Source: Actinomyces johnsonii (GTDB lineage Bacteria; Actinomycetota; Actinomycetes; Actinomycetales; Actinomycetaceae). Taken from it: a stretch of 64,000 nt of DNA. This document shows, piece after piece, positions 7,670 to 51,441 of the stretch. The translations under genes were made by a program, and so were the position numbers. The stretch spans positions 62,001-126,000 of the forward strand of contig NZ_VICB01000005.1 of assembly GCF_006546835.1 (NCBI RefSeq). Direction: 5' to 3'. Numbering within the stretch: position 1 is the stretch's first letter; each line of letters starts with the position of its first letter. The notes under the pieces were generated by a model, which saw nothing but the letters and a program-made list of their open reading frames with translations, made no database searches and was not told the origin of the DNA.

Positions 7670-7770
7670 CCATTGAGTAACTAGCTCAACGCCGCTGCCC
7701 GGCCGCGGAGCCGCTTTGGCCCGTGTGCGAACCGGCTCGGGTCGTGAACGGATCCGAGCGGCCTTCGGCA

Positions 7771-7776
7771 TAGGGT
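7771..7776 (+). promoter_or_regulatory. Leaderless -10 element of recG
   Basis: TAGGGT followed by 7 nt and GTG at 7784. This favours the GTG at 7784 over the in-frame GTG at 7775. Confidence 0.5.
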
Positions 7777-7783
7777 GGGCGTC

Positions 7784-10117: not shown

Positions 10118-10127
10118 CGGGCCGGAG

Positions 10128-10688
10128 TCAGAGAGGCTCGGCGAACCAGAGCGTTGTCTCGCCGTAGCGCTTGTCCGCGAATCGCCCCAGTCCCTGCGGC
10201 CACGCGGGCTCCGGTGAGCGCGTCGAGCGCTCGACGACAACGACGGCGCGAGGGGCCAGCCACGGGTCCTCGCTGCGGGTCAGGGGACTGAGGATCGCGG
10301 TGAGCCCCTCCTCGGCCAGCTCGTAGGGCGGATCGATCAGCACCAGGTCCACCGGCGCCCCCGCCGCGCCGGTCAGGAAGGCGGCCGCCTTCGCGGTCAC
10401 CACCCGCAGTCCGTGCAGACCCAGCGCCCGGATATTGCGTCGGCAGATCTCGGAGGCCGCGCGCGAGGAGTCCACGAGCGTGACGTCGCCGGCCCCCCGG
10501 CTCGCCGCCTCCAGGCCCAGGGCTCCTGAGCCCGCGCACAGGTCCAGCACCCGGGCGCCGTCGAGCACCCCGTAGTGCTCCAGCCGGGCGAAGAGGGCCT
10601 CGCGCACCCGCTCGGAGGTGGGGCGCGTCCCGGACCGGGGCACCTCGATCCTGCGCCCACCCACGGTTCCGGCCACGATCCTCGTCAT
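10128..10688 (-). CDS. rsmD: 16S rRNA (guanine966-N2)-methyltransferase RsmD
   Basis: S-adenosylmethionine-dependent methyltransferase acting on 16S rRNA. Motifs are RIVAGTVGGRRIEVP at the N-terminus, RPTSERVREALFARLEH, the SAM-binding DLCAGSGALGLEAASRGA and the catalytic LIDPPYEL. 186 aa, normal length. It converges with recG and is divergent from coaD, matching the common recG-rsmD-coaD neighbourhood. Confidence 0.93.
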   Translation of the reverse strand: MTRIVAGTVGGRRIEVPRSGTRPTSERVREALFARLEHYGVLDGARVLDLCAGSGALGLEAASRGAGDVTLVDSSRAASEICRRNIRALGLHGLRVVTAKAAAFLTGAAGAPVDLVLIDPPYELAEEGLTAILSPLTRSEDPWLAPRAVVVVERSTRSPEPAWPQGLGRFADKRYGETTLWFAEPL

Positions 10689-10736
10689 GAGGCAGACCCT
10701 ACCTGGCCTGCCCCCGCCTCTGTTCCAACGGGGCGC

Positions 10737-10956
10737 TCAGCCCTCCTCGGCCGGGGCGTGCTGGCCGTAACCGGTATCCCGGATCTTGCGTGCGACCGCC
10801 GCGATCTGCTCGTCGGAGAGGATCTTGGGGCTGGAGACGGCGAGCGTGCGCAGGTAGAGCTCGCAGACCCACTCCAGCTCCTGCGCCGGTCCTGAAGGAG
10901 ACCGACGCGGCGCGCGTCCCGCACGGCGACACGCCCAGCCAGTAGCGTGACCGCAT
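10737..10956 (-). pseudogene. Possible small frameshifted gene upstream of rsmD
   Basis: On the minus strand, about 47 codons ending at the TGA at 10739-10737 read like real protein. They contain LEWVCELYLRTLAVSS and LSDEQIAAVARKIRDTGYG, with nearly every third base G or C. This frame has no ATG, GTG or TTG before it runs into coaD. A different frame starts at an ATG (10956-10954) with similar GC3, so one indel near 10885 would join the halves into about 72 aa. It may be a decayed small gene, a sequencing error, or a gene with an unusual start. I recognise no family. Confidence 0.35.
10943..10948 (+). promoter_or_regulatory. Leaderless -10 element of coaD
   Basis: TAGCGT, then 6 nt, then the coaD ATG at 10955. 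It is the same hexamer as at ddl. Confidence 0.55.
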
Positions 10957-11578
10957 GAGCCTGGCCGTCTACCCCGGAAGCTTCGACCCCCTTACCCTGG
11001 GGCACGTCGACATCGTCGCCCGCGCGACCACGCTCTTCGACGTCGTCGTCATCGGGATCGCCCACAACGCGGCCAAGGCGGGGCACTACCTGCTCGACGC
11101 CGAGGAGCGCCTGGCCCTGGCCAGGGCCTCCACCTCCCACCTGCCCGGAGTGGAGGCGGACATCGTCCCCGGGCTCCTGGCCGACTACTGCCGTGGGCGC
11201 GGTGCGAACGCCATCATCAAGGGGCTGCGCAACGGCGGCGATCTGGACGCCGAGGCGCCCATGGCGCTGCTCAACCGGGACCTGGGTGCGCCTGAGACGG
11301 TGTTCCTGACCGCGTCGCCCATCCACGCCCACATCTCCTCCTCCCTCGTCAAGGACGTCGCCGGCTACGGCCGCGATATCTCCGCCCTCGTTCCGCCCGC
11401 CGTCCACCGCGCCCTGGAGGAGCGCCTCGCCGCCGAAGCGCTCCGGCCCGACCGCGGGGACGCCCGGCAGCCGGAGCGGCAGTACGACCGGCGCAGCGGC
11501 GCCCCAGGCCCCGTCTTACCCGGAACCCAGCCAGGCCGCTTCGTCGGCGCCGACCACACACGAGAGGACCTACCGTGA
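10955..11578 (+). CDS. coaD: Pantetheine-phosphate adenylyltransferase
   Basis: Adenylylates 4'-phosphopantetheine in coenzyme A synthesis. The nucleotidyltransferase motif is YPGSFDPLTLGHVDI at the N-terminus, and ISSSLVKDVAGYG is the second family motif. The catalytic core ends near residue 160. About 45 more residues, rich in Arg, Pro and Gly, follow with no recognisable domain. The start is set by TAGCGT-6nt-ATG. Its stop overlaps the next gene as GTGA. Confidence 0.93.
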   Translation: MSLAVYPGSFDPLTLGHVDIVARATTLFDVVVIGIAHNAAKAGHYLLDAEERLALARASTSHLPGVEADIVPGLLADYCRGRGANAIIKGLRNGGDLDAEAPMALLNRDLGAPETVFLTASPIHAHISSSLVKDVAGYGRDISALVPPAVHRALEERLAAEALRPDRGDARQPERQYDRRSGAPGPVLPGTQPGRFVGADHTREDLP

Positions 11579-33198: not shown

Positions 33199-33675
33199 AT
33201 GGGAAACCTGCTGCATCGTTTCGGTCGCGGCCGCGTTGTCGCCACCGTGGTCGTGGTGGTGACATCGGGCCTTCTGCTCGGGGTCACCCGTATGGTGTTC
33301 TTCCACCCCGCCGAATCCGTGAGCGAGCCGGGCATTGTTATGACCGGAACCCCGGCCACCTCACCGCAGTCCTCCACATCGGCACCGGACCAGATCTCCG
33401 ACAGCGCCAGCAACGTCTCACATGATCAGGGCGGCGCTGAGGCAGGCTCTTCGATCCCATCGACGCAGGGCCACTCGCCCCAGGCGGTTGAGCCCGATCC
33501 GCCTGTCGCCGTCGACCACGGCAGTCGGCAGTCGGCGCCCGCCGCTCCTAGCGCACCGGCCGCGGCCGGAAAGTCCGATGACTCTCGCACCGAGATCGAT
33601 GATGATGACGACAAGAGTCCCGCAAAGATCGGGGCGACGGAGCGTGACGACGACGATCGCGACATTGACGACTGA
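33199..33675 (+). CDS. Membrane-anchored acidic protein of unknown function
   Basis: 158 aa. A basic N-terminus (HRFGRGR) precedes one hydrophobic segment, VVATVVVVVTSGLLLGVTRM (about residues 13-32). The rest is a disordered Ser/Pro/Ala-rich stretch ending in Asp runs (IDDDDDK, DDDDRDIDD). The topology suggests an external tail held by one helix. AAGGGG precedes the ATG. It converges on a two-component pair, and a role there is only a guess. No family recognised. Confidence 0.65.
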   Translation: MGNLLHRFGRGRVVATVVVVVTSGLLLGVTRMVFFHPAESVSEPGIVMTGTPATSPQSSTSAPDQISDSASNVSHDQGGAEAGSSIPSTQGHSPQAVEPDPPVAVDHGSRQSAPAAPSAPAAAGKSDDSRTEIDDDDDKSPAKIGATERDDDDRDIDD

Positions 33676-33735: not shown

Positions 33736-34395
33736 TCAGGTGAGCCGGTAACCCATACCGCGTACCGTCTCCACCCTGTCCCTGCCCAGCTTGTTGCGCA
33801 GGTAAGAGACGTAGACCTCCACCACGTTGGAGCCGGGATCAAAGTCCAGTCCCCACACGGCGCTCAGGAGCTGCTCGCGGCTGAGGACCTGGCCGGGGTG
33901 GCGCATGAAGGTCTCGGCGAGGGCGAACTCCCGCGCCGAGAGCTCCACCGTCCGGCCCTCCAGCGTCAGGGCGCGGGTGCGCAAGTCCAGGACCATGTCG
34001 CGGTGGGTCAAACGCATCTGGTCGGCCCCGGCAGCTTCCGGACGCAGCCGCACCCGGATACGGGCCAGGAGTTCCTCGAAGGAGAAGGGCTTGGGCATGT
34101 AGTCGTCGGCGCCACCCTCGAGTCCGGCGACGCGGTCGGCCACCGAGGACCGGGCTGTGAGCATAATGACCGGTGCCGTCACCCCCTGACCGCGCAGCCG
34201 CTGGAGCACCTCGAAACCGTCGATGTCGGGTAGGCCCACGTCCAGGATGATGAGGTCGAAGTTCGTCTGGAGCGCGAGCTCCACGGCCTCCAGGCCGGTG
34301 GAGGTGGTGTGCGGGGCGAAACCGGCCGCTTTGAGGCCCTTGGTGAGGAATGCGACGATCCGGGGCTCGTCCTCAACGATGAGGATACTACTCAT
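33736..34395 (-). CDS. OmpR/PhoB-type response regulator, MprA-like
   Basis: 219-aa transcription factor. The receiver has acidic residues VEDEPR, the phosphoacceptor Asp52 in LIILDVGLPD and Lys in MPKPFSFEELLARIRVRL. The winged-helix C-terminus contains ELSAREFALAETFMRHPGQVLSR and VDVYVSYLRNKL-type sequence ending VRGMGYRLT. It follows the kinase gene by 6 nt, so they are a pair. Its targets are not evident; the adjacent polysaccharide-type operon and the small acidic protein are candidates. Confidence 0.88.
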   Translation of the reverse strand: MSSILIVEDEPRIVAFLTKGLKAAGFAPHTTSTGLEAVELALQTNFDLIILDVGLPDIDGFEVLQRLRGQGVTAPVIMLTARSSVADRVAGLEGGADDYMPKPFSFEELLARIRVRLRPEAAGADQMRLTHRDMVLDLRTRALTLEGRTVELSAREFALAETFMRHPGQVLSREQLLSAVWGLDFDPGSNVVEVYVSYLRNKLGRDRVETVRGMGYRLT

Positions 34396-34401
34396 GGTGA
34401 G

Positions 34402-35919
34402 TCACTCCTTGGACGCTGTCGGGGATTGTTCAGGGGATGAGGCACCGGCGTTCTCCGAGGCCGATGTCTCGGAAGAGGACGGTGCAGGGGAGGCCTCCAG
34501 AGGGATCGCCATGGTGAACACCGATCCCTGGCCCACCTGGGAGCGTATGTCCAATCGTCCTCCGTGCGCTGCGACGATCGTCTCCACGATACTCAGTCCC
34601 AGTCCTGTTCCCGAGGCCATCTCCTGGGCGTTGGTGGTGCGTTTGAACCGTTGGCGCACCACTTCGATCTCCTCGGCGGCGATCCCGATGCCCTCGTCGC
34701 CCGCCCACATCCGCAGGTGTCCGTCCCGCACTGCCGAGCCCAGGCGGACGGTACTGCAGTGCTCGGAGTACTTCACGGCATTGGCCACCAGCTGGAGCCA
34801 GGCCTGGGTGATTCGGGTGGGGTCGATCATGGCCCGGGTAAAGGCCACCGATTCCAGCTGCCAGCGGCGCTCGCCCAGGGCGAGGGACTTGTCGAAGACC
34901 AGCTCGGTGAGCTCGGCGACGTCGGTGTCCACCGGGGCGATGAAGTCGGTCTGGGAGCTCTTGGCCAGCAGGATCAGATCATCGATGAGCACTCCCATCC
35001 GGTCGAGCTCGTCAATGGCCAGCAGCTGGGTCTGGCGCACGTCTCCGGGATCGGCGGGGTCGGTGAGCTCAAGGTGCCCGCGGACCACGGCGATGGGCGT
35101 ACGCAGCTCGTGGCCGACGTCGTCGAGCAGGTTGCGCTGAGCTTCCACCGCGGTCTGGACCCGGTCCAGCATCCGGTTGACGGCTGCGGCCAGGGCGGTC
35201 AGGTCGTCTCGGCCCTTGACCGGAACCCGGGTGGTCAGGTCCTCCTCGCCGATGGATTCGGTGGCGCGCCGCAGCTGCTCGATGGGACGCAGGAGCCGCT
35301 CGACGCCGAACCAGGCCAGGCCGGTCACCAGGGCGACGGTGAAGACGGCCGCCGCGGTGTAGAAGGCCATAGTGCGCTGAAGCTGGGACTCGGCGACCTT
35401 GAGGTCGATGACATGCACGAGCGCTCCGTGTTGGGGGCCGCCCTGGACCGGGACGATGAGAACCCGGTAGTTCGATGAGGGGGTGCGTACCGTCTCGATG
35501 ACCGACTCCGAGGCGGCGGCCTGGGAGGTTACCCGCTTGAGCAGGTCGGTGTCCTCCTCCGGGCGGAAGGAGACGTTGTCGGAGGAGACCCAGGTCAGCT
35601 CCGTGTCGGAGCTGGTCCCTACGAATCCGAGCTCGGCCTCACCGGGCCCCTCCGCGGTGCGCTGGATGTGGACGCGGAGCACCGCCGAGACGTCCTCCAA
35701 GGGTTGGCCGCTGGAGGGATCCGTTCCGTCCGCAGCCAGCTCGCGGATCCGGTCTCGACTGTGCTCGAGTCGATTCGTGGCGTCGGCCGACACGCTGGTG
35801 TGCCCCAGCGCCCACACAATCGCTCCGCAGGTGATGAGCGCGATACTCGCCACCAGCACGATCGCCCACATGACGCGGGTACCGATGGTGATGGTACGGG
35901 TGGGCATGAGAGAGGTCAC
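34402..35919 (-). CDS. Membrane sensor histidine kinase, MprB-like
   Basis: 505-aa kinase. The first membrane helix is VMWAIVLVASIALITCGAIV (about residues 18-37). An extracytoplasmic domain of about 130 residues follows, then a second helix (FYTAAAVFTVALVTGLAWF, about 175-195), a HAMP linker, the H-box VGHELRTPIAVVRGHLE and an HATPase domain with GTGLGLSIVETIVAAHGG. The C-terminal 25 residues are Ser/Glu-rich. The GTG at 35919 is set by CACAAT-6nt-GTG. An ATG four codons later is the alternative. It starts 75 bp after the dehydrogenase gene. Confidence 0.88.
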   Translation of the reverse strand: MTSLMPTRTITIGTRVMWAIVLVASIALITCGAIVWALGHTSVSADATNRLEHSRDRIRELAADGTDPSSGQPLEDVSAVLRVHIQRTAEGPGEAELGFVGTSSDTELTWVSSDNVSFRPEEDTDLLKRVTSQAAASESVIETVRTPSSNYRVLIVPVQGGPQHGALVHVIDLKVAESQLQRTMAFYTAAAVFTVALVTGLAWFGVERLLRPIEQLRRATESIGEEDLTTRVPVKGRDDLTALAAAVNRMLDRVQTAVEAQRNLLDDVGHELRTPIAVVRGHLELTDPADPGDVRQTQLLAIDELDRMGVLIDDLILLAKSSQTDFIAPVDTDVAELTELVFDKSLALGERRWQLESVAFTRAMIDPTRITQAWLQLVANAVKYSEHCSTVRLGSAVRDGHLRMWAGDEGIGIAAEEIEVVRQRFKRTTNAQEMASGTGLGLSIVETIVAAHGGRLDIRSQVGQGSVFTMAIPLEASPAPSSSETSASENAGASSPEQSPTASKE

Positions 35920-35925
35920 GCCGTC

Positions 35926-35931
35926 ATTGTG
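35926..35931 (-). promoter_or_regulatory. Leaderless -10 element of the sensor kinase
   Basis: CACAAT on the minus strand, 6 nt before the GTG at 35919. It suggests the kinase-regulator pair can be transcribed separately from the upstream operon. Confidence 0.5.
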
Positions 35932-35993
35932 CCCGGACTCACCGGTCTCCGTCCGGCGAGTCCGGGCTCGGGCGGAGCCACCAGCGGTAGTGC

Positions 35994-37319
35994 TCAGCGT
36001 CCCACTCCTGCGTAGGTCCACCCGGCCTGGCGCCAGGCCGCCGGGTCCAGGGCGTTGCGTCCGTCGATGATGACGCAGTCGGCGACCCCGGTGGCGGCGT
36101 CGGCGGGGTCGAGAGTCACGAACTGGTTCCACTCTGTCAGCAGCAGTACGAGCTCGGCTCCCTTGAGCGCGGCACGGGGGTCCTCCTCCACTGTGAGATG
36201 GGGGTGGGACCGGGTGACGACGGGCAGGGCCTGCGGGTCGCAGACGGTGACCTCCGCCCCGAGGCCGGCCAGGCGCGAAGCGACGTCCAGGGCGGGGGAG
36301 TCGCGCACGTCGTCGCTCAGGGGCTTGAAGGCGGCTCCGAGGACGGTGATCGCCTTGCCGGAAAGGTCGTCCCCCACGTGGGCGCGGGCCTGCTCGACAA
36401 TCCGGTCGCGCTGCTCGCGGTTGATGGAGTCGACCCGTCCCAGCAGATCCGCCAGGTGCGCGGCCCCGTGCAGGTCGGCGCTGGCGCGCAGCGCCCGGAT
36501 GTCCTTGGGCAGGCAGCCTCCGCCGAACCCGACTCCGGCCTGGAGGAAGCGCCTGCCGATGCGCGGGTCGTGACCGATGGCATCGGCCAGGACGGTCACG
36601 TCGGCGCCGGCCGTGTCGCATAGGTGGGCCATGGCGTTGATGAAACTGATTTTGGTGGCCAGGAAGGAGTTCGCTGCGGTCTTGACCAGTTCGGCGGTGG
36701 GGTAGTCGGTGACGATTAGAGGGATCCCCTCCTCCAGTAAGGGCTGGTAGACGGCGTCGAGAGCGGCCTGGGCCTCCTGGGCGTCGCGGGAGTCGGCGGG
36801 CATCCCGTAGACGATGCGGTCGGGGTGGAGGGTATCGGCTACGGCGAAGCCCTCGCGCAGGAACTCGGGGTTCCACAGCACTAGGGCGCGGTCGGCCAGG
36901 CGCTCGGACACCTGCTGGGCGGTGCCGACCGGGACGGTCGACTTGCCCACCACGAGGCTGCGCCCGCCCTTGGGCAGGGCGTCATGGAGCATGTCGACCA
37001 CGCTCCACAACTGGCTCAGATCCGCCTCACTGCCGGTGGCGGACTGCGGGGTGCCCACAGCGATGAAGTGGACATCGGCCTCGGCCAGCTCCGCCGCCGT
37101 CGGCGCAGAGGTGAAGCGCAGGTCGCCCTGCTGGGCGCCGGTGACCAGCAGCTCGGGCAGGCCCGGTTCGTAGAAGGGGGCGCGGCCCTGGGAGAGGGCC
37201 TCGACCTGCTCGGTCCGGGTGTCGATTCCCAGGACGTGGTGTCCCAGGTGGGCCATGGCGGCGGCGTGGACGGCGCCGAGATATCCGCAGCCGATGACAG
37301 TGAGCTTGAGCGGGGTCAT
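35994..37319 (-). CDS. ugd: UDP-glucose 6-dehydrogenase
   Basis: Oxidises UDP-glucose to UDP-glucuronate (or a related nucleotide sugar) in the cytoplasm. Motifs are the NAD-binding VIGCGYLGAVHAA, AVGTPQ, the STVPVGT loop, the catalytic cysteine in GFGGGCLPKDIRAL and the C-terminal VLGAAFKPLSDDVRDSPAL. 441 aa. The ATG at 37319 overlaps the preceding gene as ATGA. It is the last gene of the seven-gene operon and probably supplies the uronic-acid donor used by the glycosyltransferases. GDP-mannose or UDP-N-acetylhexosamine are alternative substrates of the family. Confidence 0.88.
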   Translation of the reverse strand: MTPLKLTVIGCGYLGAVHAAAMAHLGHHVLGIDTRTEQVEALSQGRAPFYEPGLPELLVTGAQQGDLRFTSAPTAAELAEADVHFIAVGTPQSATGSEADLSQLWSVVDMLHDALPKGGRSLVVGKSTVPVGTAQQVSERLADRALVLWNPEFLREGFAVADTLHPDRIVYGMPADSRDAQEAQAALDAVYQPLLEEGIPLIVTDYPTAELVKTAANSFLATKISFINAMAHLCDTAGADVTVLADAIGHDPRIGRRFLQAGVGFGGGCLPKDIRALRASADLHGAAHLADLLGRVDSINREQRDRIVEQARAHVGDDLSGKAITVLGAAFKPLSDDVRDSPALDVASRLAGLGAEVTVCDPQALPVVTRSHPHLTVEEDPRAALKGAELVLLLTEWNQFVTLDPADAATGVADCVIIDGRNALDPAAWRQAGWTYAGVGR

Positions 37320-38422
37320 GAGTTGTTCCAATCGTCGCTGAGGTTGAGGGGGGCGAAAGGCGAGGCGTGCCCCAGGCAGTGACGTACCCAGGCGGGCAGC
37401 CACTGGTGGGCAGCGGGTCGGAAGGCGTGGACGAAGACGAGTCGCAGCGCCGAAGAGCGGTAGTAGGTCTCCAGACGCTCCGCCGTCGTGGGCAGCGTGC
37501 GGGCCATGTTGTCGAGCAGCCCGCGGACCTGTGCGTGGGCCTCGGGACCGAGCCGGCTCCGAAGTGCCATGAGGTCCGCGTGGGCCCAGAGATTGCCCAG
37601 GTCGAGGGCCGCCTCGGCCATGGCCGCGGTGTCCAGGTCCAGCAGGGACAGGCTGATTCCGTCCCACAGGAGCTGGCCGTCGTGGAGGTCGCGGTGGGCG
37701 ATGACGTGCACCCCGTCCTCCTCCCGCAGGCTCAGGCAGGTGTCCACCACCTGCTCGTGCAGGAGAGTCGGTTGGTCGATGACGCCGTAGCGTTGGGCGG
37801 AAGCGAACCATCGGCGCAGCACCTCGGCCTCCTGACGCGGCCCGTGGACGGGCAGGTCCGCCTCGCCGTGGGCCAGGTGGGCCCAGGAGCCCGCCAAGTG
37901 CCTCCACGCGGGCAGACCGGCGTCGCCGAGCGCGCCCAGGCTGCGGCCGGGCAGCAGCTCGAAATCGACGACGTCGTCAATGCTGTTGCCGCTATTCAGG
38001 ATCCGGGGGGTGCGCAGGCCGGTGACCCTCAGGACCGAGGCGGCCGTCGCGTGCGCTCGCACCAGGGCTGCGGCCCGGTGCGGCCGCACGATTTTGCGGA
38101 CCCGCGTCTCCTCCATCACCACGGCACGGCGGCCAGCGCGGTGGACGACGAGCGTTCCGGTCAGGCGCGCGGATAGGGCCGGCAGGGCCGGGTCAGTGGC
38201 ATAGGGCAGTAGGTCGGGAGCCGCTCCGGCGGTGACGTGCCCGGCGCGCAGACGGCCCTCGCCGTCGACGCACTCGATGCTCACGCTCGTGGAGCCCGAG
38301 TCCCGGTGCTCGGGCCAGGCGCGGCGCAGCCCTGGAATCGCGTGCAGCGTGCTCAGCACGCCGTTCATCTCTGGTTTCTGTGTCATCTCAGTCATCTGTG
38401 TCGTAGTCGAGACTTCTGTCAT
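37316..38422 (-). CDS. APH-fold phosphotransferase, second of a pair
   Basis: 368-aa cytoplasmic kinase-like protein of the aminoglycoside/choline phosphotransferase fold. The catalytic loop HRDLHDGQLLW lies about residue 243 and the metal-binding DLD in SLLDLDTAAMAE follows. The usual Asn of the loop is Gln. The ATP-binding lobe is poorly conserved, although VVMEETRVRKIVRPH contains the likely Lys. It sits between another APH-like gene and ugd, overlapping both as ATGA. It is not evidence of drug resistance: position suggests it phosphorylates a sugar, polyol or lipid-linked glycan. Confidence 0.7.
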   Translation of the reverse strand: MTEVSTTTQMTEMTQKPEMNGVLSTLHAIPGLRRAWPEHRDSGSTSVSIECVDGEGRLRAGHVTAGAAPDLLPYATDPALPALSARLTGTLVVHRAGRRAVVMEETRVRKIVRPHRAAALVRAHATAASVLRVTGLRTPRILNSGNSIDDVVDFELLPGRSLGALGDAGLPAWRHLAGSWAHLAHGEADLPVHGPRQEAEVLRRWFASAQRYGVIDQPTLLHEQVVDTCLSLREEDGVHVIAHRDLHDGQLLWDGISLSLLDLDTAAMAEAALDLGNLWAHADLMALRSRLGPEAHAQVRGLLDNMARTLPTTAERLETYYRSSALRLVFVHAFRPAAHQWLPAWVRHCLGHASPFAPLNLSDDWNNS

Positions 38423-39663
38423 GCCCCGGCGGTCTTCTTCTCAGGTGACCGGGCGATGCTCTCAATGGCGGCCAGTTCCACCCCGATGCGTTCACGCCAG
38501 GACGGATCGGCCCGGCGCAGAGGATCGGCCAGCCGTGCCAGGCGCGAGTAGGCGATCGCCACCCCCAGCTGCTCGGCGCCGGGTGCCGGTCGGTGCTCGG
38601 CGTAGCCCTCCAACAGGGCGCGCCCCTGGGAGGCCGGAGCCACCGCGAGGTAGGAGCCCAGATCGGTGACTGCCGGCGCTAGGCGCACCCGGTCGAAGTC
38701 GGTCAGCCAGATCCGCCCGGAGGAGCGCTCGTACAGCACCTGGTCGGGGGAGGCGTCGCCATGGGTGAGGGTCGGCTCGCCCGACAGCTGACTGGGCAGT
38801 ATGTCGCCCACCGCCCGCACGCGGCGGGCCAGCTCGGGGTCCAGGACATCGAACTGACGGGCGTGAACCTCGGCCAGGTCCTGAGGATCGGGATGCCGAT
38901 GGGGCAGCCGGTTGACGAGGTCCGGCTTCAGCGCTTCTGCGCAGGAGTGCAGCTCGGCCAGCAGCGCCCCCACGCGCCGCGTGGCATCGGCTGCGGATTC
39001 GGTTGCGACCTCGGATATGGCGTGTTCAGCGGCACTCTCCTCGGAGAGCTCGGCCACGTTCGTATCGCCGCACCACTGCTGGAGACTGACATGCCCCTCG
39101 CACCGGGCCACGGCCTCGGAGTCGAGCAGACGCGGGACCGGGAGGAACTCGGACAGGGCGCGATGGACGTCGTCGGCCGGGTTGCCGGCCTGAGCACGCA
39201 TCCGCAGCACCGTGGAGCCGTCCCGCAGCACGAGACGCCGTGAGGGGTTGTAGCGTAGGACGTCCCCGGCCTCCCAAGATCTCAGCACCCCCTGGCGGGC
39301 GGCGTCCGCCATCGGCCCGGCCAGCTTGGGGTCGGTGTGAACCGGACCGCTCTGCAGCAGCAGGTCGCCGCCTGCGGCCCGGGTGATCGGAGCCTGGTCG
39401 AGCCCCAGAGAGGTGGCCAGGCGCTCGGCCTGGGCGGCCTTGGAGTGCGAGACCGGCCAGAGCAGCCGCGCCCACCCGGACGTGAGCCCGGTGGAGCGCT
39501 CCGTCAAGGACATCAGGACCGAGACGTTCGGCTTGATACGCAGCCGGCCTGCCCGCACTGGTTGGCCGAGGAGCTCACTGAGCCGGTCGGCATCGAGAAC
39601 CGCGCAGACGGCGTCGGCTGTAGTCACTGTTGTGGTCGCTGCGGAGATCGCGGGTGGGTTCAC
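38419..39663 (-). CDS. APH-fold phosphotransferase, first of a pair
   Basis: 414 aa. The catalytic loop LTHGDASPDQVLY (about residue 298) and the metal-binding LTDFDRVRLAP show the aminoglycoside-phosphotransferase fold. As in its neighbour, Gln replaces the usual Asn of the loop. A putative ATP-lobe strand is RRLVLRDGSTVLRM. The GTG at 39663 overlaps the ABC exporter stop as GTGA, which excludes the longer open frame upstream. It is weakly similar to the next gene and probably an old duplicate. The substrate is unknown. Confidence 0.68.
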   Translation of the reverse strand: MNPPAISAATTTVTTADAVCAVLDADRLSELLGQPVRAGRLRIKPNVSVLMSLTERSTGLTSGWARLLWPVSHSKAAQAERLATSLGLDQAPITRAAGGDLLLQSGPVHTDPKLAGPMADAARQGVLRSWEAGDVLRYNPSRRLVLRDGSTVLRMRAQAGNPADDVHRALSEFLPVPRLLDSEAVARCEGHVSLQQWCGDTNVAELSEESAAEHAISEVATESAADATRRVGALLAELHSCAEALKPDLVNRLPHRHPDPQDLAEVHARQFDVLDPELARRVRAVGDILPSQLSGEPTLTHGDASPDQVLYERSSGRIWLTDFDRVRLAPAVTDLGSYLAVAPASQGRALLEGYAEHRPAPGAEQLGVAIAYSRLARLADPLRRADPSWRERIGVELAAIESIARSPEKKTAGA

Positions 39664-41486
39664 GATCCGCTCCCCTCCAGGGCGAAGAAGTCCGACAGGT
39701 GGCTGTTCGCCCACCGGCGGAACTCGTCCGAGGTGTCCATGAGGTGCTGAGGACTCCCCTCCAGCCGGATCCGCCCGTCCTGGATCCACACCACCCGGTC
39801 GACGCGCATAGCAGCTTGCGGATCGTGGGTGACGGTCAGGGTCGTGCGTCCGGCCACCAGCCCGTCGATCGCCTCGAGCACCGCCAACGTCGAGGCCGGG
39901 TCCAACCCGGTGGTCGCCTCGTCCAGGATGACGATCGGCGAGTCGCGCAGCAGTGCCCGGGCGATGGCGATGCGCTGACGCTGGCCCCCGGAGAGGGTGC
40001 CGCCCCGCTCGCCCACGGCCGTGTCGTAGCCGTCGGGCATCTGGGTGATGAAATCGTGGGCGTGGGCCGCGCGCGCGGCCGCCTCTACCTCACCGTCGGA
40101 GGCGTCGGGCCGCCCCAGGCGGATGTTCTCGCGGATCGTGCCGGTCAGCAGCACCGCCTCCTGGTGCAGGACCGAGACCTGCGAGCGCAGGAACTTCAGG
40201 TCCAGCTCGTCCAGGCTGTGCCCGTCGAGACTGACCGTGCCCGACGTCGGATCCAGGGCCCGCACCACCAGGGACACCAGAGTGGACTTGCCTGAGCCCG
40301 ACGGCCCCACGAGCGCCACGTGCTCACCGGGAACCACCGTCAGGCTCACACCGTGAAGCACCTGCCGGCCCTCGTAGGCGGCGCGGACGTGGTCGAAGTG
40401 GACCATGCCGCGAACCGGGTCCAGCACGGTGGCGTCGCGAGGCGAGACGATCTCGGGCTCGACCGCCATGAGGTCGGCCACCCGCTCGCCCGATGCCGCC
40501 GCCCGGGCGATGCGGCCGGTGTACTTGGCCATGTCCCGAAGCGGCTTCATGGTGGTGCGCAGGTAGGTCGTGAAGAGCACGAGGTCTCCCGGAGACATGG
40601 CGCCGTTCAGGACCCGGATGCCTCCACCGACCATGACCACGGCCGTGGCCACGCCGACGATGACGTCCGTGGAACGCTCCAGGCGCGCGGCGATGCGGCG
40701 TGAACGCACTCCCTCGCTCAGGGAGACCGTGTTGGCACCCGTGAAGCGCTCGTGCAGCAGGGGCTCCAGACCGTAGGCCTGGACCACCTTGATGGCGCCG
40801 AGCGCCTCCTGGGCCGTGTTGGCCAGGTTCCCCTCCGACTTGCGGCTGCGCAGGGAGGCCGCGGAGATCCGCCGAGAGTTGCCGGAGGAAGCGATTGCGA
40901 AAGCCGCCACTGCCATGACCACGATCGTGGCCAGCAGCGGGTCCAGGAACACCATGACCACGACCATGACCAGCAGGGTCAAGGTGTTGGCGGCCATTGG
41001 CAGGCCGGCGGTGACGGCCACCTCCTGCATGCGGTTGACGTCGGCGATGAGGCGCTGAACCGTATCCGCGCTGCGGTTGCGGGCGTGGAACTGTTGGGAG
41101 AGCCCCTGGACGTGGTGGAAGGCCCGGCTGCGCAGGGAGGCTGCCGTACGTGAGCCCACCAGTGCGAAGGCCACGGTGGCCAGGTAGTTGCACCCCGCCC
41201 GACCGGCCACGATCACCAGAAGGGCCACGCCCAGCCCCACCAAGGAGGAGGTCGTGGCGGGTGCGCTGCCCGTGTGCCTGCCCATCGAGGCCACCAACGA
41301 GTCGATGACGACCTTCAGGGGCCAGGGCTCCATCACCCGGAAGGCCACCTCTGCCAGAAGCACCACCGTGCCCCCGGCCATGAGGCGCCACTGCGGAGCA
41401 GCATCGGGCCCTACCAGACGCAGGGTCTGGCGCATGGGGGAGCGGTGCTCCCGGGGTGCGCGCCGAAGCACAGGCGCACCCATCAC
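39660..41486 (-). CDS. ABC exporter (fused membrane and ATPase domains)
   Basis: 608-aa type IV exporter (MsbA/multidrug type). Six membrane helices lie in about residues 35-320. The ATPase domain has Walker [18 protein letters not shown], signature [16 protein letters not shown] and Walker [13 protein letters not shown]. Every functional motif is intact, so it may act as a homodimer. The GTG at 41486 overlaps the upstream glycosyltransferase as GTGA. An ATG at 41483 directly follows. In this operon it most likely moves a glycolipid or glycan made by the neighbouring enzymes. Confidence 0.85.
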
Positions 41487-42658
41487 CGCTCACCACCCTG
41501 AGCGAGGCCTGCCAGCTCCAGGATCCGGGCGACGGTCCGATGCCAGGAGTGGCGCTCCTCGGCCAGAAGGCGCCCGCTGCGGCCCATGCGGGCGCGCCGA
41601 TTCGGGCATGCCGCCAGATCATCCAGGGCCGCGGCCAGAGCCGTGGGGTCCGAGGGGGCCACGAGCACACCGTGCCGGCCAGAGCCGTCCTCAAGCAGCT
41701 GGGGAATCTGCCCGACGTCGGAGGCCACGACCGCGAGCCCCGCGGCCAGGTACTCCAGAACCTTCATGGGGGAGAAGTACTGCTGCTCACCCCCACCCAG
41801 GTCCGGGTAAGGGGCCACTCCGATCGCCGAGCCCGCCAGGTGGATGGGAATGTCCTGCGGAGCGACCGCCCCGCGGAAGTCCGCCTCCACCCCGAGGCGC
41901 CCGGCCTGAGCGCGCAGCGAGTCCATCTCGGGGCCGTCCCCGATGATCCGCAGGCTCCAGCTCTGACGCGCCAGGGCCGCCGCCGTGATGAGGTCGGCCA
42001 CCCCGTGCCAGGGCTTGAGGGTCCCCACGAAGGTGACGACCACCCGTTCTGGGTCCTCCGGCTGGGGCTGAATACGGCGCACGCTCACGCCGTTGGGAAC
42101 CGTATGGATCCTGCCTGCGACATCGCCCGCACCGGTATCGGACAGGTCGGCGGTGCGACGACGCACCCAGTCGGCCACCGGATCCGAGACGCACACCGTG
42201 GCCCGGGCGGCCGCCACCTGGCGGCGCAGCACCTGCGCCGCACCGGAGGCGTCCACCAGCGAGCGGTGACGACGCTGCTCATCGATCAGCGGAGCATTGA
42301 CCTCCAGGATTCCGGGAACCCCGGTGGCGGCCGTGATGTCGGTAAGCGCCGTGGAGAACAGGGAGTAGCGCTCGTAGACCAGGTCGACGCCGTCGGCGAT
42401 CACCCGGGAGACGATCCGCTCCGCGGCGTGCGCCTGCGCCTGCTCCCGCTCAGCGGGCTCGACGTCGGCGACGGCCTCCAGGTGCAGCTCGAGGTCGGTG
42501 AGGTCGTCGGGAATGTGCTTGCCGGAGCGCACGGCGTACAGGGCCACCTCATGGCCGATGGACCGCAGTTCGCGGACCACCTCCTGGATGTGCACCGAGG
42601 CGCCCTTGGTCCCGAACACCGGGATACCCGGGTCGCAGCAGATGTAGGCGATCCGCAT
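41483..42658 (-). CDS. GT4-type glycosyltransferase
   Basis: 391-aa GT-B glycosyltransferase. The N-terminal acceptor domain starts MRIAYICCDPGIPVFGTKGA, with a glycine loop and SVHIQEVVRELRSIGHEV. The C-terminal donor domain has VVTFVGTLKPWHGVADL and the E-x7-E-like PMKVLEYLAAGLAVVASDVG. The ATG at 42658 shares one base with the stop of the upstream glycosyltransferase (TGATG). It probably adds a sugar to the product of the neighbouring enzymes. Donor and acceptor are not predictable. Confidence 0.82.
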   Translation of the reverse strand: MRIAYICCDPGIPVFGTKGASVHIQEVVRELRSIGHEVALYAVRSGKHIPDDLTDLELHLEAVADVEPAEREQAQAHAAERIVSRVIADGVDLVYERYSLFSTALTDITAATGVPGILEVNAPLIDEQRRHRSLVDASGAAQVLRRQVAAARATVCVSDPVADWVRRRTADLSDTGAGDVAGRIHTVPNGVSVRRIQPQPEDPERVVVTFVGTLKPWHGVADLITAAALARQSWSLRIIGDGPEMDSLRAQAGRLGVEADFRGAVAPQDIPIHLAGSAIGVAPYPDLGGGEQQYFSPMKVLEYLAAGLAVVASDVGQIPQLLEDGSGRHGVLVAPSDPTALAAALDDLAACPNRRARMGRSGRLLAEERHSWHRTVARILELAGLAQGGER

Positions 42659-43965
42659 CAGGCGGCTCCTTCCCGATCGGCCAGGTACACGGTGGGAGCG
42701 GTGGGAGCGGGACGGGGACTCGTCTGCCAAGCGGCCAGGACCTCGGCCTGGGCGCGGGAGTCGAAGTGCTCCTCGATCAGTGACCGCGCCCCACGGGACA
42801 GGGAGACGGTGTCGACCTCGCCCAGCGCGATCCTGCGCAGGGCAACTGCCAGTTCGGTTGGGTCTCCCGGCGGCAGCAGGAGCCCGGTGATACCGTCGCG
42901 AACCACCTCCGGCAGCCCCGAGACCGCCGTGGCCACCACCGGCGTCCCGCAGGCCATCGCCTCCAGGATCACCGTGGGAAGACCGTCGATATTGCCATCG
43001 GCCGCCTCGATGCAGGGCGCTGCGAAGACGTCCGAGCGCGCCAACAGATCACGCACCTCCGCCTGCGTGAGCGGACCCAGGAGGCGGATCCGGTCCGCCA
43101 GGCCCAGGCGGTCGATCTGCGCGGCCAGGCGCTCGCGCTCCTCACCGTCACCGGCCAGCTCGACCTCGACGTCGACACCGGAGCTCACCAGGATCCGCAC
43201 CGCCTCGATCAGGTCCGCGAAGCCTTTCTTGGGAACCAGGCGCCCGACGGCGCACACCCGTAGTGGCCGTGAGTTCCCGGCCGGCACGGGCAGCGGAGCG
43301 CGATAGGAGAAGCGGTCGAGCTCGATGGCGTTGTAGCGCAGCGACACCGTGGCCCCCGTGCCCGCCAGTACCGTCCTCAGGTGCTCCTTGTTGTACCGGC
43401 TGATGGCGATAACCCGCTGCGCGTCGGCGCAGATCCGGCGCAGCCACACGGGATCCACGGACTCGTGGAAGATGTCCTTGGCGTGGGTGGTCACGGTGTA
43501 GGGGATACCGGTCAGGGCCGAGGCGATCCATGCCACCCGGCCCGCCAGAGATGCGAAATGCGCGTGCAGATGCGTAATGGAGTCCCTGCGCGCCTGACGT
43601 GCCAGCTCCACGCCTTGGGCCACCTCGTCACCGGGAAGGTCGGCCAGCACCGGCATGATGGCGGCGAAGCGCTCGCGGTCGTCCTGGCGGGTCAGACCGT
43701 CGGTGAGCCGGCTCCACAGGTCGATGGCCCGTACCGGCCGGCCCACCCAGTTGACCCGGGCGGCCACCCGGGCGATCTCGGGGTGGAAGCGCGAGTCCGT
43801 GGTGGGGCGCAGCGCGTAGATACTCAGGTCCTCGCCCTGGGCCTCGCGGGCCAGGATCTCGGTGACGATGAAGGTCTCCGAGAAGCGCGGGTAGACCTTG
43901 AGGACGTATCCGATGCGGGCGCCGTTCTGATGAATGTCCTGGTGGTTGTCGACTGCGGGATTCAT
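42658..43965 (-). CDS. GT4-type glycosyltransferase, WcaL/AmsK-like
   Basis: 435-aa GT-B enzyme. The N-terminus IGYVLKVYPRFSETFIVTEI is typical of the WcaL/AmsK exopolysaccharide group. The histidine-rich segment ITHLHAHFASLAGRVAW and the donor-site motifs VGRLVPKKGFADLIEAV and DGLPTVILEAMACGTPVVAT follow. It overlaps its neighbours by 4 nt (upstream) and 1 nt (downstream). It is part of the translationally coupled operon. The linkage formed is unknown. Confidence 0.83.
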   Translation of the reverse strand: MNPAVDNHQDIHQNGARIGYVLKVYPRFSETFIVTEILAREAQGEDLSIYALRPTTDSRFHPEIARVAARVNWVGRPVRAIDLWSRLTDGLTRQDDRERFAAIMPVLADLPGDEVAQGVELARQARRDSITHLHAHFASLAGRVAWIASALTGIPYTVTTHAKDIFHESVDPVWLRRICADAQRVIAISRYNKEHLRTVLAGTGATVSLRYNAIELDRFSYRAPLPVPAGNSRPLRVCAVGRLVPKKGFADLIEAVRILVSSGVDVEVELAGDGEERERLAAQIDRLGLADRIRLLGPLTQAEVRDLLARSDVFAAPCIEAADGNIDGLPTVILEAMACGTPVVATAVSGLPEVVRDGITGLLLPPGDPTELAVALRRIALGEVDTVSLSRGARSLIEEHFDSRAQAEVLAAWQTSPRPAPTAPTVYLADREGAA

Positions 43966-45257
43966 GCGGGGATCTCCATCCTGGTGAGGCTGGTGGTGCG
44001 GCTGTTGAGATGGCTGAGGCGGGTGTCGAGGATGTCGCCCCGGTCGCCGACGAGCTCGGCGGCGAGCAGGGGGACGGTTTCCAGACCGTCCAGGCGCAGA
44101 CGACGTCGCCCCGCCAGCTGACTGCGAGCGCCGGCGTCTTGGTCACTCAGCAGCTCGGTGAGCCAGTCCTCGAGTGCTGCGGCACTCAGGTTCGCGACTC
44201 TTAGGAGGTCGATGGCGCCCGCATCCTTCAGAGCGGTGGCCCGGATGAACTGCTCGAGGCGAGGCGTCTCACGGGGGACGAGGAGAGCCGGGGTTTCGGA
44301 AGCGAGGATCTCGCTGACCGTGTTGTAGCCGCCCATCGAGATGACCGCTGCGGCCTGCCGGATGTGGTGGCTCATCCCCGGCCAGGACCGGCGCACGATG
44401 GTGTGGGGGCCGGCCGCCTGAGCGACCTGGTGGAACTGGGCGGCATCGAGCTGGGGGCCGGTGACCACGACGTGCCGGTACCCGTCGGGGACACGTGCTG
44501 CGGCTGCGGCGCGCAGCAGGTGGACGCCGTCGGAGCCGCCACCGGCGGTGGTCAGGATGAAGGCGCCGGCAGCCTCGGCGTTACCGGCCAGGGCTTCTGA
44601 CGCCTCGGAGCCGTGAGTGGTTTCCGCGGCATCGCGGCCATGGGCGAGGTAGCCGGTGTAGCGCATCCGCTCCTGAAGTGCCGTCGGAGCCTCGCCAGTA
44701 GCGTTCAGGTCATGGACCGAGGAGTCCCCGTAGACCCAGACCTCGTCGATGAGTCGGCGCAGTGTGTCGGCCTGGCCGAGCTCCTCCCACTCGCGCTGAA
44801 CGGTCGCAGGCGTGTCCAGGACCTCGCGCAGGCCGAGCACCACGCGCGCGCCGGGGTTCGCCTGGCGCAGACGTGCCAGGGGCTCGCGCAGCTCCTGGTG
44901 CACCCCGTAGGGGTGACGGTCGATGATGAGCAGGTCCGGGATGAAGGTCGTTAGGACACCGGACAGCAGGGCGCTGCGGACCAGGCTCAGGTCCTCACGG
45001 GTGATACGCAGGCGCTGGGGCAGGTAGGTGTCCTCGGCCTTCTTGACTCCCGGCAGCACCAGCCAGTCGAAGCCGTCGGGAAGCCGGTGTTCCTGTCCCG
45101 GAGCCAGCCCGGTGATGACCAGGCCGGTGACGTCGCAGCCGGTGAGCCCCGGCAATGCCCGGGCCAGGTGATGGGCCAGAGCAAGGTTGCGGCGAAGGTG
45201 CCCCAGCCCCTTGGCGTCGTGACTGTAGAGCGCCACCCGTAGGGGAACGGTTGTCAT
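43962..45257 (-). CDS. MurG-like (GT28-type) glycosyltransferase
   Basis: 431-aa GT-B fold protein and first gene of the operon. The N-terminus VALYSHDAKGLGHLRRNLAL resembles the GT28/MurG glycine-rich acceptor loop. The donor domain has ILTTAGGGSDG, RRSWPGMSHHIRQAAAVISM and MGGYNTVSEILASETPALLV. Members of this group transfer sugars to lipid or polyprenyl carriers, so it may start the glycan. AAGGGA lies about 13 nt before the ATG. Upstream is 111 bp to the DeoR gene. Confidence 0.75.
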   Translation of the reverse strand: MTTVPLRVALYSHDAKGLGHLRRNLALAHHLARALPGLTGCDVTGLVITGLAPGQEHRLPDGFDWLVLPGVKKAEDTYLPQRLRITREDLSLVRSALLSGVLTTFIPDLLIIDRHPYGVHQELREPLARLRQANPGARVVLGLREVLDTPATVQREWEELGQADTLRRLIDEVWVYGDSSVHDLNATGEAPTALQERMRYTGYLAHGRDAAETTHGSEASEALAGNAEAAGAFILTTAGGGSDGVHLLRAAAAARVPDGYRHVVVTGPQLDAAQFHQVAQAAGPHTIVRRSWPGMSHHIRQAAAVISMGGYNTVSEILASETPALLVPRETPRLEQFIRATALKDAGAIDLLRVANLSAAALEDWLTELLSDQDAGARSQLAGRRRLRLDGLETVPLLAAELVGDRGDILDTRLSHLNSRTTSLTRMEIPA

Positions 45258-45368
45258 GGATCGTCTCTTCCCTTGGTGTCAGTTCAGGGTCGTTCTGAGA
45301 CGATCCTGACCGGCCAGGAGAAGACGACGATTAGGGGCGGATGAGAAAGCTCTCAGGTTTCTCGGAGA
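45258..45368 (-). promoter_or_regulatory. Upstream region of the glycosyltransferase operon
   Basis: The 111 bp between the DeoR gene and the operon's first gene must hold its promoter unless it is read through from deoR. CCTAAT and TAATCG near 45334 are -10-like, but no clear -35 is seen. Confidence 0.35.
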
Positions 45369-51239: not shown

Positions 51240-51312
51240 GGGGCTATGGCGCAGTTGGTAGCGCGCTTCCATGGCATGGAAGAGGTCGGGGGTTCGAATC
51301 CCCCTAGCTCCA
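51240..51312 (+). tRNA. tRNA-Ala (anticodon GGC)
   Basis: 73 nt that fold as a full cloverleaf. The acceptor stem GGGGCTA pairs with TAGCTCC (one G-T pair), the anticodon stem is CTTCC/GGAAG with loop ATGGCAT (anticodon GGC), and the T arm is GGGGG-TTCGAAT-CCCCC. The discriminator is A. CCA is not encoded. Confidence 0.97.
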
Positions 51313-51352
51313 CGAACCGCTCGGATTCTTCTCCGAGTGGGGCACCCACACC

Positions 51353-51425
51353 GGGGCTATGGCGCAGTTGGTAGCGCGCTTCCATGGCATGGAAGAGGTC
51401 GGGGGTTCGAATCCCCCTAGCTCCA
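51353..51425 (+). tRNA. tRNA-Ala (anticodon GGC), second identical copy
   Basis: The same 73 bases as the first copy. The 40-nt spacer contains the hairpin CTCGGA-ttcttc-TCCGAG. The two probably share one precursor, which ends at the terminator at 51442-51473. Confidence 0.97.
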
Positions 51426-51441
51426 CAATTCTTCAGCAACA

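Follow-up and report, generated by a model that had tools for sequence, protein, structure and literature searches.

We analyzed a stretch of 64,000 nucleotides from Actinomyces johnsonii (source genome 3.35 Mb in 42 contigs; the whole stretch is called the window below), in which seven open reading frames (ORFs) lie at 35994-45257, all on the minus strand, in the 5′ to 3′ order A-B-C-ABC-K1-K2-UGD (Table 1): three glycosyltransferases (GTs; A, B, and C), an exporter (ABC), two APH-fold kinases (K1 and K2), and a nucleotide sugar dehydrogenase (UGD). An earlier note on this DNA had reported seven genes in one direction, joined by five 4-nt overlaps and one TGATG; all seven ORFs were found on that strand and at those positions, and the overlaps are seen directly in the junction sequences (A/B, ATGA; B/C, TGATG; C/ABC, GTGA; ABC/K1, GTGA; K1/K2, ATGA; K2/UGD, ATGA); were ABC to start one codon further on, at ATG 41483, the C/ABC junction would read TGATG instead. 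The unit is bigger than that note saw: it also takes in a sensor histidine kinase (HK) and a response regulator (RR), which stand downstream of UGD, an operator-like array before A, an acidic exported ORF, and, in other loci, gene fusions.

Table 1. Features of the seven-gene cassette and its surroundings in A. johnsonii (positions in the window).
Feature	Position	Strand	Basis or remark
A, GT-B glycosyltransferase with GT28 C-terminal domain (remote MurG relative)	43962..45257	-	Pfam, NCBIfam, alignment
B, GT4 glycosyltransferase	42658..43965	-	Pfam, NCBIfam; remote best matches only
C, GT4 glycosyltransferase	41483..42658	-	Pfam, NCBIfam
ABC, fused transmembrane/ATPase exporter, MsbA/Sav1866 type	39660..41486	-	start GTG 41486 or ATG 41483
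K1, APH-fold kinase	38419..39663	-	HGD....Q and DFD region conserved; ~110 aa extra N-terminal part
K2, APH-fold kinase	37316..38422	-	HRDLHDGQ loop and DLD motif conserved
UGD, nucleotide sugar dehydrogenase, likely UDP-glucose type; accessory	35994..37319	-	Pfam, NCBIfam
HK, sensor histidine kinase	34402..35919	-	putative leaderless GTG start at 35919 after a CACAAT -10-like box
RR, OmpR-type response regulator	33736..34395	-	Pfam; orthologs cassette-linked in several genera
Small exported protein, 158 aa, Asp-rich tail	33199..33675	+	convergent with RR; hydrophobic N-terminal segment, PGIVMTG motif
Operator-like three-box array, CTGAGA-N4-TCTCAT-N5-CCTAAT, 11-bp period	45330..45356	-	begins 99 nt ahead of the ATG of A

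A genome scan for relatives of A yielded at least 548, the best 80 of which are our named loci: 34 show the complete set of seven in order, 32 lack only UGD, and 14 hold fewer genes, 11 of the last being cut by a contig end and three being true exceptions (L099 and L100, in which no K1 was found, and L101, in which no kinase was found). The core A-B-C-ABC-K1-K2 is present, in a single order and on a single strand, in 66 of the 69 named loci that a contig end does not truncate, a count that is biased upward because the 80 loci were picked by similarity to A; conservation as a unit, whose absence the earlier note had named as grounds for refuting its observation, holds across many genera. These include Actinomyces, Schaalia, Buchananella, Gleimia, Propionibacterium, Tessaracoccus, Arachnia, Rothia, Kocuria, Arthrobacter, Microbacterium, Rathayibacter, Ornithinimicrobium, and Serinicoccus; the nearest of the named loci is that of Actinomyces naeslundii NCTC 10301 (91% for gene A), and the A. 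oris loci L053-L055 carry the cassette as well. A match to gene A at E 0.001 occurs in 36 of 59 genomes (own included; some remote), and among 30 neighborhoods that were fetched the order is seen in most of the same genus and in three from other families (L046-L048), L050 having no match and L049 being decayed. In this decayed locus (G016, also L187), A, B, K1, and K2 are reduced to fragments, and HK and RR seem intact. In an even sample of the phylum, 18 of 396 genomes (counting the own one) have A at E 1e-20; from outside the class, L152 has the six genes in order, and three genomes of one family (L155, L157, and L163) encode a protein of 947-965 aa, of unknown kind, on the same strand, one ORF upstream of A.

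A -4/-1 stop/start overlap is available in the named loci at A/B (34/80), B/C (66/79), C/ABC (46/76), ABC/K1 (57/68), K1/K2 (44/66), and K2/UGD (15/34); these counts record the presence of a suitable ATG, GTG, or TTG, not proof of its use, and the loci include near relatives. At such frequencies, the overlaps seem to exceed what chance would give. Some neighbors appear to be fused, with no internal stop (A+B in L038, L080, and L083; B+C in L037; K1+K2 in L116, L124, and L126), and this joining of neighboring enzymes suggests A-B, B-C, and K1-K2 complexes. From the tight coupling, a fixed-ratio pathway had been proposed; gene number in fact varies among loci: several Arthrobacter have two K2, no kinase was found in L101, and G013 holds two partial cassettes, L038 (A, B, C, ABC, and K2) and L040 (A, B, ABC, and K1). 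Given these differences in kinase and GT number, the cassette is not rigid in evolution; that the kinases vary in number while A, B, and ABC stay would be expected of enzymes decorating a product. The alignments used, the window included, held 22 of 28 (alignment A1), 17 of 22 (A2), and 22 of 25 (A3) extracted sequences, and 41 of 66 K2 loci (A4), 39 of 64 K1 loci (A5), and 31 of 79 A loci (A6), these three plus the window; frame extraction omitted frames with an internal stop or short coverage (seven of them named).

Pfam agrees with the families that had been assigned to the two GT4 enzymes, the ABC exporter, the two APH-fold kinases, and the dehydrogenase; none of A, B, C, ABC, K1, and K2 reaches a cut-off in the NCBIfam rows examined (for B and ABC, the best 25). 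Gene A, earlier called MurG-like, does have a GT28 C-terminal domain, but its kinship to MurG is remote: the MurG model TIGR01133 matches this domain only, with 36.0 bits against a cut-off of 250.25, which by this model places A outside that family. Gene B has EpsE as its top NCBIfam match and BshA-type and PimB-type enzymes as its top PDB matches, all remote, and reaches 44.7 bits vs 385 with the lipopolysaccharide (LPS) 1,6-galactosyltransferase model PRK09922. Scores with the teichuronic models all fall below cut-off (B, 99.5 bits vs 550 for TuaC; C, 40.7 vs 550 for TuaH; UGD, 338 vs 700 for TuaD). Among the seven proteins, the set covered by this Pfam search, there is no polymerase, Wzx-type flippase, or priming transferase, so that the product is more probably a short glycan linked directly to a lipid than a polymer; the lack of polymerase and Wzx among these seven also led us to drop a capsule or teichuronic reading.

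ABC is an ABCB-like fused exporter, with PF00664 (ABC_membrane) and PF00005 (ABC_tran) both above cut-off, and it falls outside the MsbA lipid A flippase family as modeled by TIGR02203 (357.3 bits vs 602). UGD belongs to the UDP-glucose/GDP-mannose dehydrogenase family (TIGR03026, 379.6 vs 189.8; PF03721, PF00984, and PF03720). Sought on the same strand within ~4.5 kb of the cassette, it follows the six-gene core in 34 of 66 loci; it is not adjacent in the same-genus loci L036, L039, L043, and L044 and the partial cassettes L038 and L040, and in L085 it is placed apart from the cassette and carries its own array. A second UGD copy, 56% identical, lies elsewhere in the source genome. UGD is accessory, outside the core. 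The glycan synthesis and ABC export proposed in the earlier note fit the families; the uronic acid donor that it added is likely only where UGD is present, since UGD is absent next to many cassettes. Anti-phage defense was dropped as a reading: PADLOC at E 1e-5 matches ABC alone of the seven proteins (mad3 and mad8).

K1 and K2 are both members of the APH fold, with PF01636 above cut-off and the HxD....Q/N and DxD motifs in place; the catalytic H, D, and Q and the DxD are invariant in the aligned 42 K2 and 40 K1 sequences, and the structure models (pLDDT 89.7 and 93.9) have APH-fold neighbors. Searching PDB sequences with the single sequences gave no match for K1 and chance-level matches only for K2, so that profiles were required. 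LxmK heads the solved folds near K1 and is among the nearest for K2; the model of LxmK, a class V lanthipeptide kinase (NF038156), gives 31.0 and 18.7 bits vs 315, which by this score leaves both proteins outside that family. Mycobacterial maltokinase is the best Foldseek match of K1 and a weak profile match, and its full-length superposition on K1 is poor (root-mean-square deviation 14). A phosphorylcholine (Lic-1) reading, raised since LicA also has the APH fold, was rejected, with no LicC or LicD family match among the seven proteins; Actinomyces viscosus and gerencseriae are stated in PMC10434233 to contain Lic-1 enzymes.

RR paralogs in the own genome are at most 42% identical, and the RRs adjoining the cassette in other genera ~50-75%; being closer than the own paralogs, the latter are probably orthologs. 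An RR of at least 49% identity is found in 41 of the 80 named loci (several end before or inside RR). Its place varies: Actinomycetaceae have it downstream and co-oriented with the cassette, Arthrobacter and Serinicoccus have it upstream, and Rathayibacter and some Microbacterium have it downstream on the opposite strand. Among 36 same-genus genomes, with co-occurrence counted on RR only and not on HK, an RR of at least 70% is present in all 25 that have the cassette (decayed in one, G016) and in none of the 11 that lack it (G002, G003, G004, G008, G019, G025, G028, G029, G033, G034, and G036). Six of these 11 hold only a 42-43% paralog, and G002, G008, G029, G033, and G034 have nothing at E 1e-48; K2 at E 1e-100 or better is found in 24 of the 25 cassette genomes and none of the 11. 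In the eight cassette-less genomes that were read, nadD and proA are 0.1 to 7 kb apart and the block from A to RR is absent in every one; deoR is retained in five of the eight, and a stretch of 50 residues in G003 still matches the acidic ORF. On an obg tree (31 rows), cassette presence changes at least eight times, four of the changes being forced by well-supported branches. With 194.9 bits vs 330 for PRK10643, RR is not a PmrA by this model. The gap between UGD and HK (35919-35996, minus strand) contains an inverted repeat, GCCCGGACTC...GAGTCCGGGC, followed by GGGCACAATG and GTG, and the repeat has matching changes in some near relatives (GATCC...GGATC); from its sequence, the gap looks like a separate promoter with a leaderless HK start.

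Upstream of A we find an array with the consensus ATGAGA-N4-TCTCAT-N5-TCTCAT and a box spacing of 11 bp. The array in the window is its sole strong site by position weight matrix (PWM), a weaker opposite-strand match overlapping it. The two-box form occurs in 55 of 98 upstream regions of A and in 19 of 1,405 upstreams of other ORFs, and the three-box form in 27 of 98 and 3 of 1,405, respectively; these patterns were chosen after examples had been seen, and the 98 upstreams are not independent, since at least four genomes were fetched twice (e.g., L029 and L057) and many are near relatives. A PWM built from the 27 defining loci places 51 of the remaining 71 above 99% of 1,396 control upstreams; in all, the array stands ahead of A in 78 of the 98 loci, 27 of them used to define it, and 20 fail (in L070 the contig starts just before A, and L064 falls just below the threshold). 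In the own genome, the three-box pattern has two exact matches (one being the window array) and, at one mismatch or fewer, six vs two for a reversed control; a looser inverted-repeat pattern has 31 sites vs eight at one mismatch or fewer, so that only the three-box form is specific. Reading eight loci with RR away from, or without, a cassette (L186 and L188-L194), we found the array adjoining HK/RR by pattern in L186, L189, L192, and L194, with weaker PWM matches in L190, L191, and L193. These patterns are consistent with binding of RR at the array. In L186 (G037; 6757-11000), an APH-like gene, weakly similar to K2, lies ~1 kb from HK/RR on the other strand.

The small exported protein convergent with RR has no Pfam match. 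ORFs of its kind were sought with a filter (a hydrophobic N-terminal segment and an Asp-rich tail) that was set after examples and loosened from 28 to 31 ORFs in 2.29 Mb; 22 of these have an RR ortholog within 2.6 kb, five more stand directly behind K2 (L102, L115, L116, L124, and L126), and four are elsewhere; 22 of 63 RR matches have such an ORF. By this filter, none was found in Arthrobacter loci with an upstream RR. The array precedes or abuts the Asp-tailed ORF in L102, L116, L124, L126, L111, L130, and L150, and L186, L192, and L194 have it ahead of a small exported protein (that of L192 fails the filter); in L186 the Asp-tailed ORF is present without the cassette. Behind the Asp-tailed ORF with its own array, L102, L116, L124, and L126 have a conserved membrane protein (a cluster of four), the L116 copy of which matches the CAAX prenyl endopeptidase family. 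In the window as a whole, the only Rfam matches at gathering scores are two tRNAs, tandem tRNA-Ala (GGC) genes of equal score at 51240-51426.

We read the core cassette A-B-C-ABC-K1-K2 (with UGD here) as making and exporting a short phosphorylated glycan under the linked HK/RR, a reading in which our confidence is evenly balanced. A, B, and C, as soluble GT-B enzymes, would add sugars successively, probably onto a membrane lipid of the inner leaflet; a lipid acceptor is suggested by the position of A on the GT28 side and by the lack of a priming phosphoglycosyltransferase or polymerase among the seven genes. UGD would provide UDP-glucuronate where present, K1 and K2 may phosphorylate the glycan or its acceptor, judging from their fold and intact catalytic motifs, and the MsbA-type exporter would flip the finished molecule outward; the fusions suggest that A-B, B-C, and K1-K2 operate as complexes. 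HK/RR may respond to a signal at the envelope (cations or cationic peptides, perhaps), the small exported protein with the Asp-rich tail being a putative partner or effector, and RR would act at the three-box array before A (the array, the linkage, and the joint presence and absence of RR and cassette are observed). A bolder proposal, which we put forward as possible though doubtful, is that the product is a multiply phosphorylated surface glycolipid of Gram-positive Actinomycetota, of an undescribed class, whose function would parallel that of the LPS inner core and whose synthesis would be turned on by a two-component system responding to cations or cationic peptides, aided by the small Asp-rich exported protein.

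Several observations weigh against this picture. The closest fold neighbors of K1 and K2 are LxmK, which is a peptide kinase, and kinases of small molecules, so that the glycan is not necessarily their substrate; ABC is as close or closer to multidrug and lipid exporters (P-glycoprotein, ABCB4, and Sav1866) than to MsbA; and 32 of 66 cassettes have no UGD behind them. On the regulatory side, L060, L064, L072, L091, L109, and L110 fail the array test despite an RR of 55-65% in the genome, and the Propionibacterium loci L080 and L083 have the cassette without an RR ortholog (44%) and without the array, so the regulator is not obligatory; conversely, G037 has HK/RR, the array, and the acidic ORF but no gene A. 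The Asp-tailed ORF of the window has no array of its own, and among 30 RR matches with full flanks such an ORF lies within 2.6 kb in 12 and not in 18 (four of these 18 have one behind K2). Finally, independent pairs on supported obg branches agree in 3.9 of 4 on average and are never opposite (p 0.125), these four well-supported contrasts being too few for significance by a sign test.

The cassette could make a small natural product for secretion, an antibiotic or signal of oligosaccharide or glycoside type, which the cell would phosphorylate internally to protect itself and then export through ABC; a pseudo-oligosaccharide pathway could well comprise three GTs, two kinases, and an exporter, and presence within the genus is patchy, but there is no scaffold-making enzyme among the seven genes and a wide, order-conserved distribution is atypical of natural-product clusters in general, so we consider this unlikely. 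That the genes form a regulated operon for drug modification and efflux, with GTs and kinases inactivating antibiotics that ABC pumps out, seems quite improbable to us: K1 and K2 do have the fold of antibiotic kinases, ABC resembles multidrug exporters, a two-component system is linked, and A weakly matches macrolide glycosyltransferases, yet that match is 35 bits vs 260 for the model, three GTs and a dedicated UGD suit synthesis more than inactivation, and the gene order is conserved over many genera.

A lipid-linked glycan might be supplied for LCP transfer to a surface protein or the wall, for instance the glycan of GspA in Actinomyces oris, which a passage of a 2021 review (PMC7831098) describes as undetermined, and A. 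oris does have the cassette (L053-L055); since the seven genes encode neither an LCP enzyme nor a polymerase or priming transferase, we give this little credence. It is very improbable that the product is a peptide, modified by K1 and K2 as LxmK does, then glycosylated by the GTs, and perhaps tied to the Asp-tailed protein: the seven genes include no LxmY-like partner, the hydrophobic N-terminal segment of the Asp-tailed ORF would normally send it by the Sec route, away from cytoplasmic enzymes, and this ORF occurs without the cassette in L186.

Should the cassette make a surface glycan, it would add a new envelope component for oral and soil Actinomycetota, encoded by a widespread, order-conserved gene set with its own regulator and predicted operator. 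Among the titles and abstract openings listed by our searches of open-licence papers in PubMed Central, none described it. The cassette is missing in close relatives (for example, G003 beside G007 and G010 on the obg tree), so that near relatives, along with single deletions, offer a way to probe both its product and its role.

Among the closest known systems is LPS inner-core assembly, which uses GTs, two sugar kinases (WaaP/WaaY), and MsbA. The cassette likewise has several GTs, two kinases, an MsbA-type exporter, and a substrate predicted here to be a glycolipid; it differs in that its kinases have the APH fold, its GTs are at most remote relatives, its host is Gram-positive, and its ABC lies below the MsbA cut-off. 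The tua operon shares with it a UGD and GT4 enzymes, with remote matches to TuaC, TuaH, and TuaD, but all scores are below cut-off, the seven genes encode neither a polymerase nor a Wzx-type flippase, and the cassette has kinases. LxmK has a solved fold close to K1 and K2, whereas their scores are far under 315 bits and an LxmY-like partner is missing from the seven genes. The catalytic loop of maltokinase carries a Q, as does that of K1, whose best Foldseek match is the mycobacterial enzyme; by contrast, the seven genes include neither trehalose synthase nor GlgE, and K1 superposes poorly over its full length. As to control, PmrA (of PmrAB) governs ugd via direct repeats, and the cassette resembles this in having an OmpR-type RR, direct-repeat boxes 11 bp apart, and a target operon with UGD, although RR is below the PmrA cut-off and the first box of the array is inverted in most loci. 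While by the tested scores it is a member of neither, the logic of the cassette resembles that of LPS inner-core assembly combined with PmrAB-type control.

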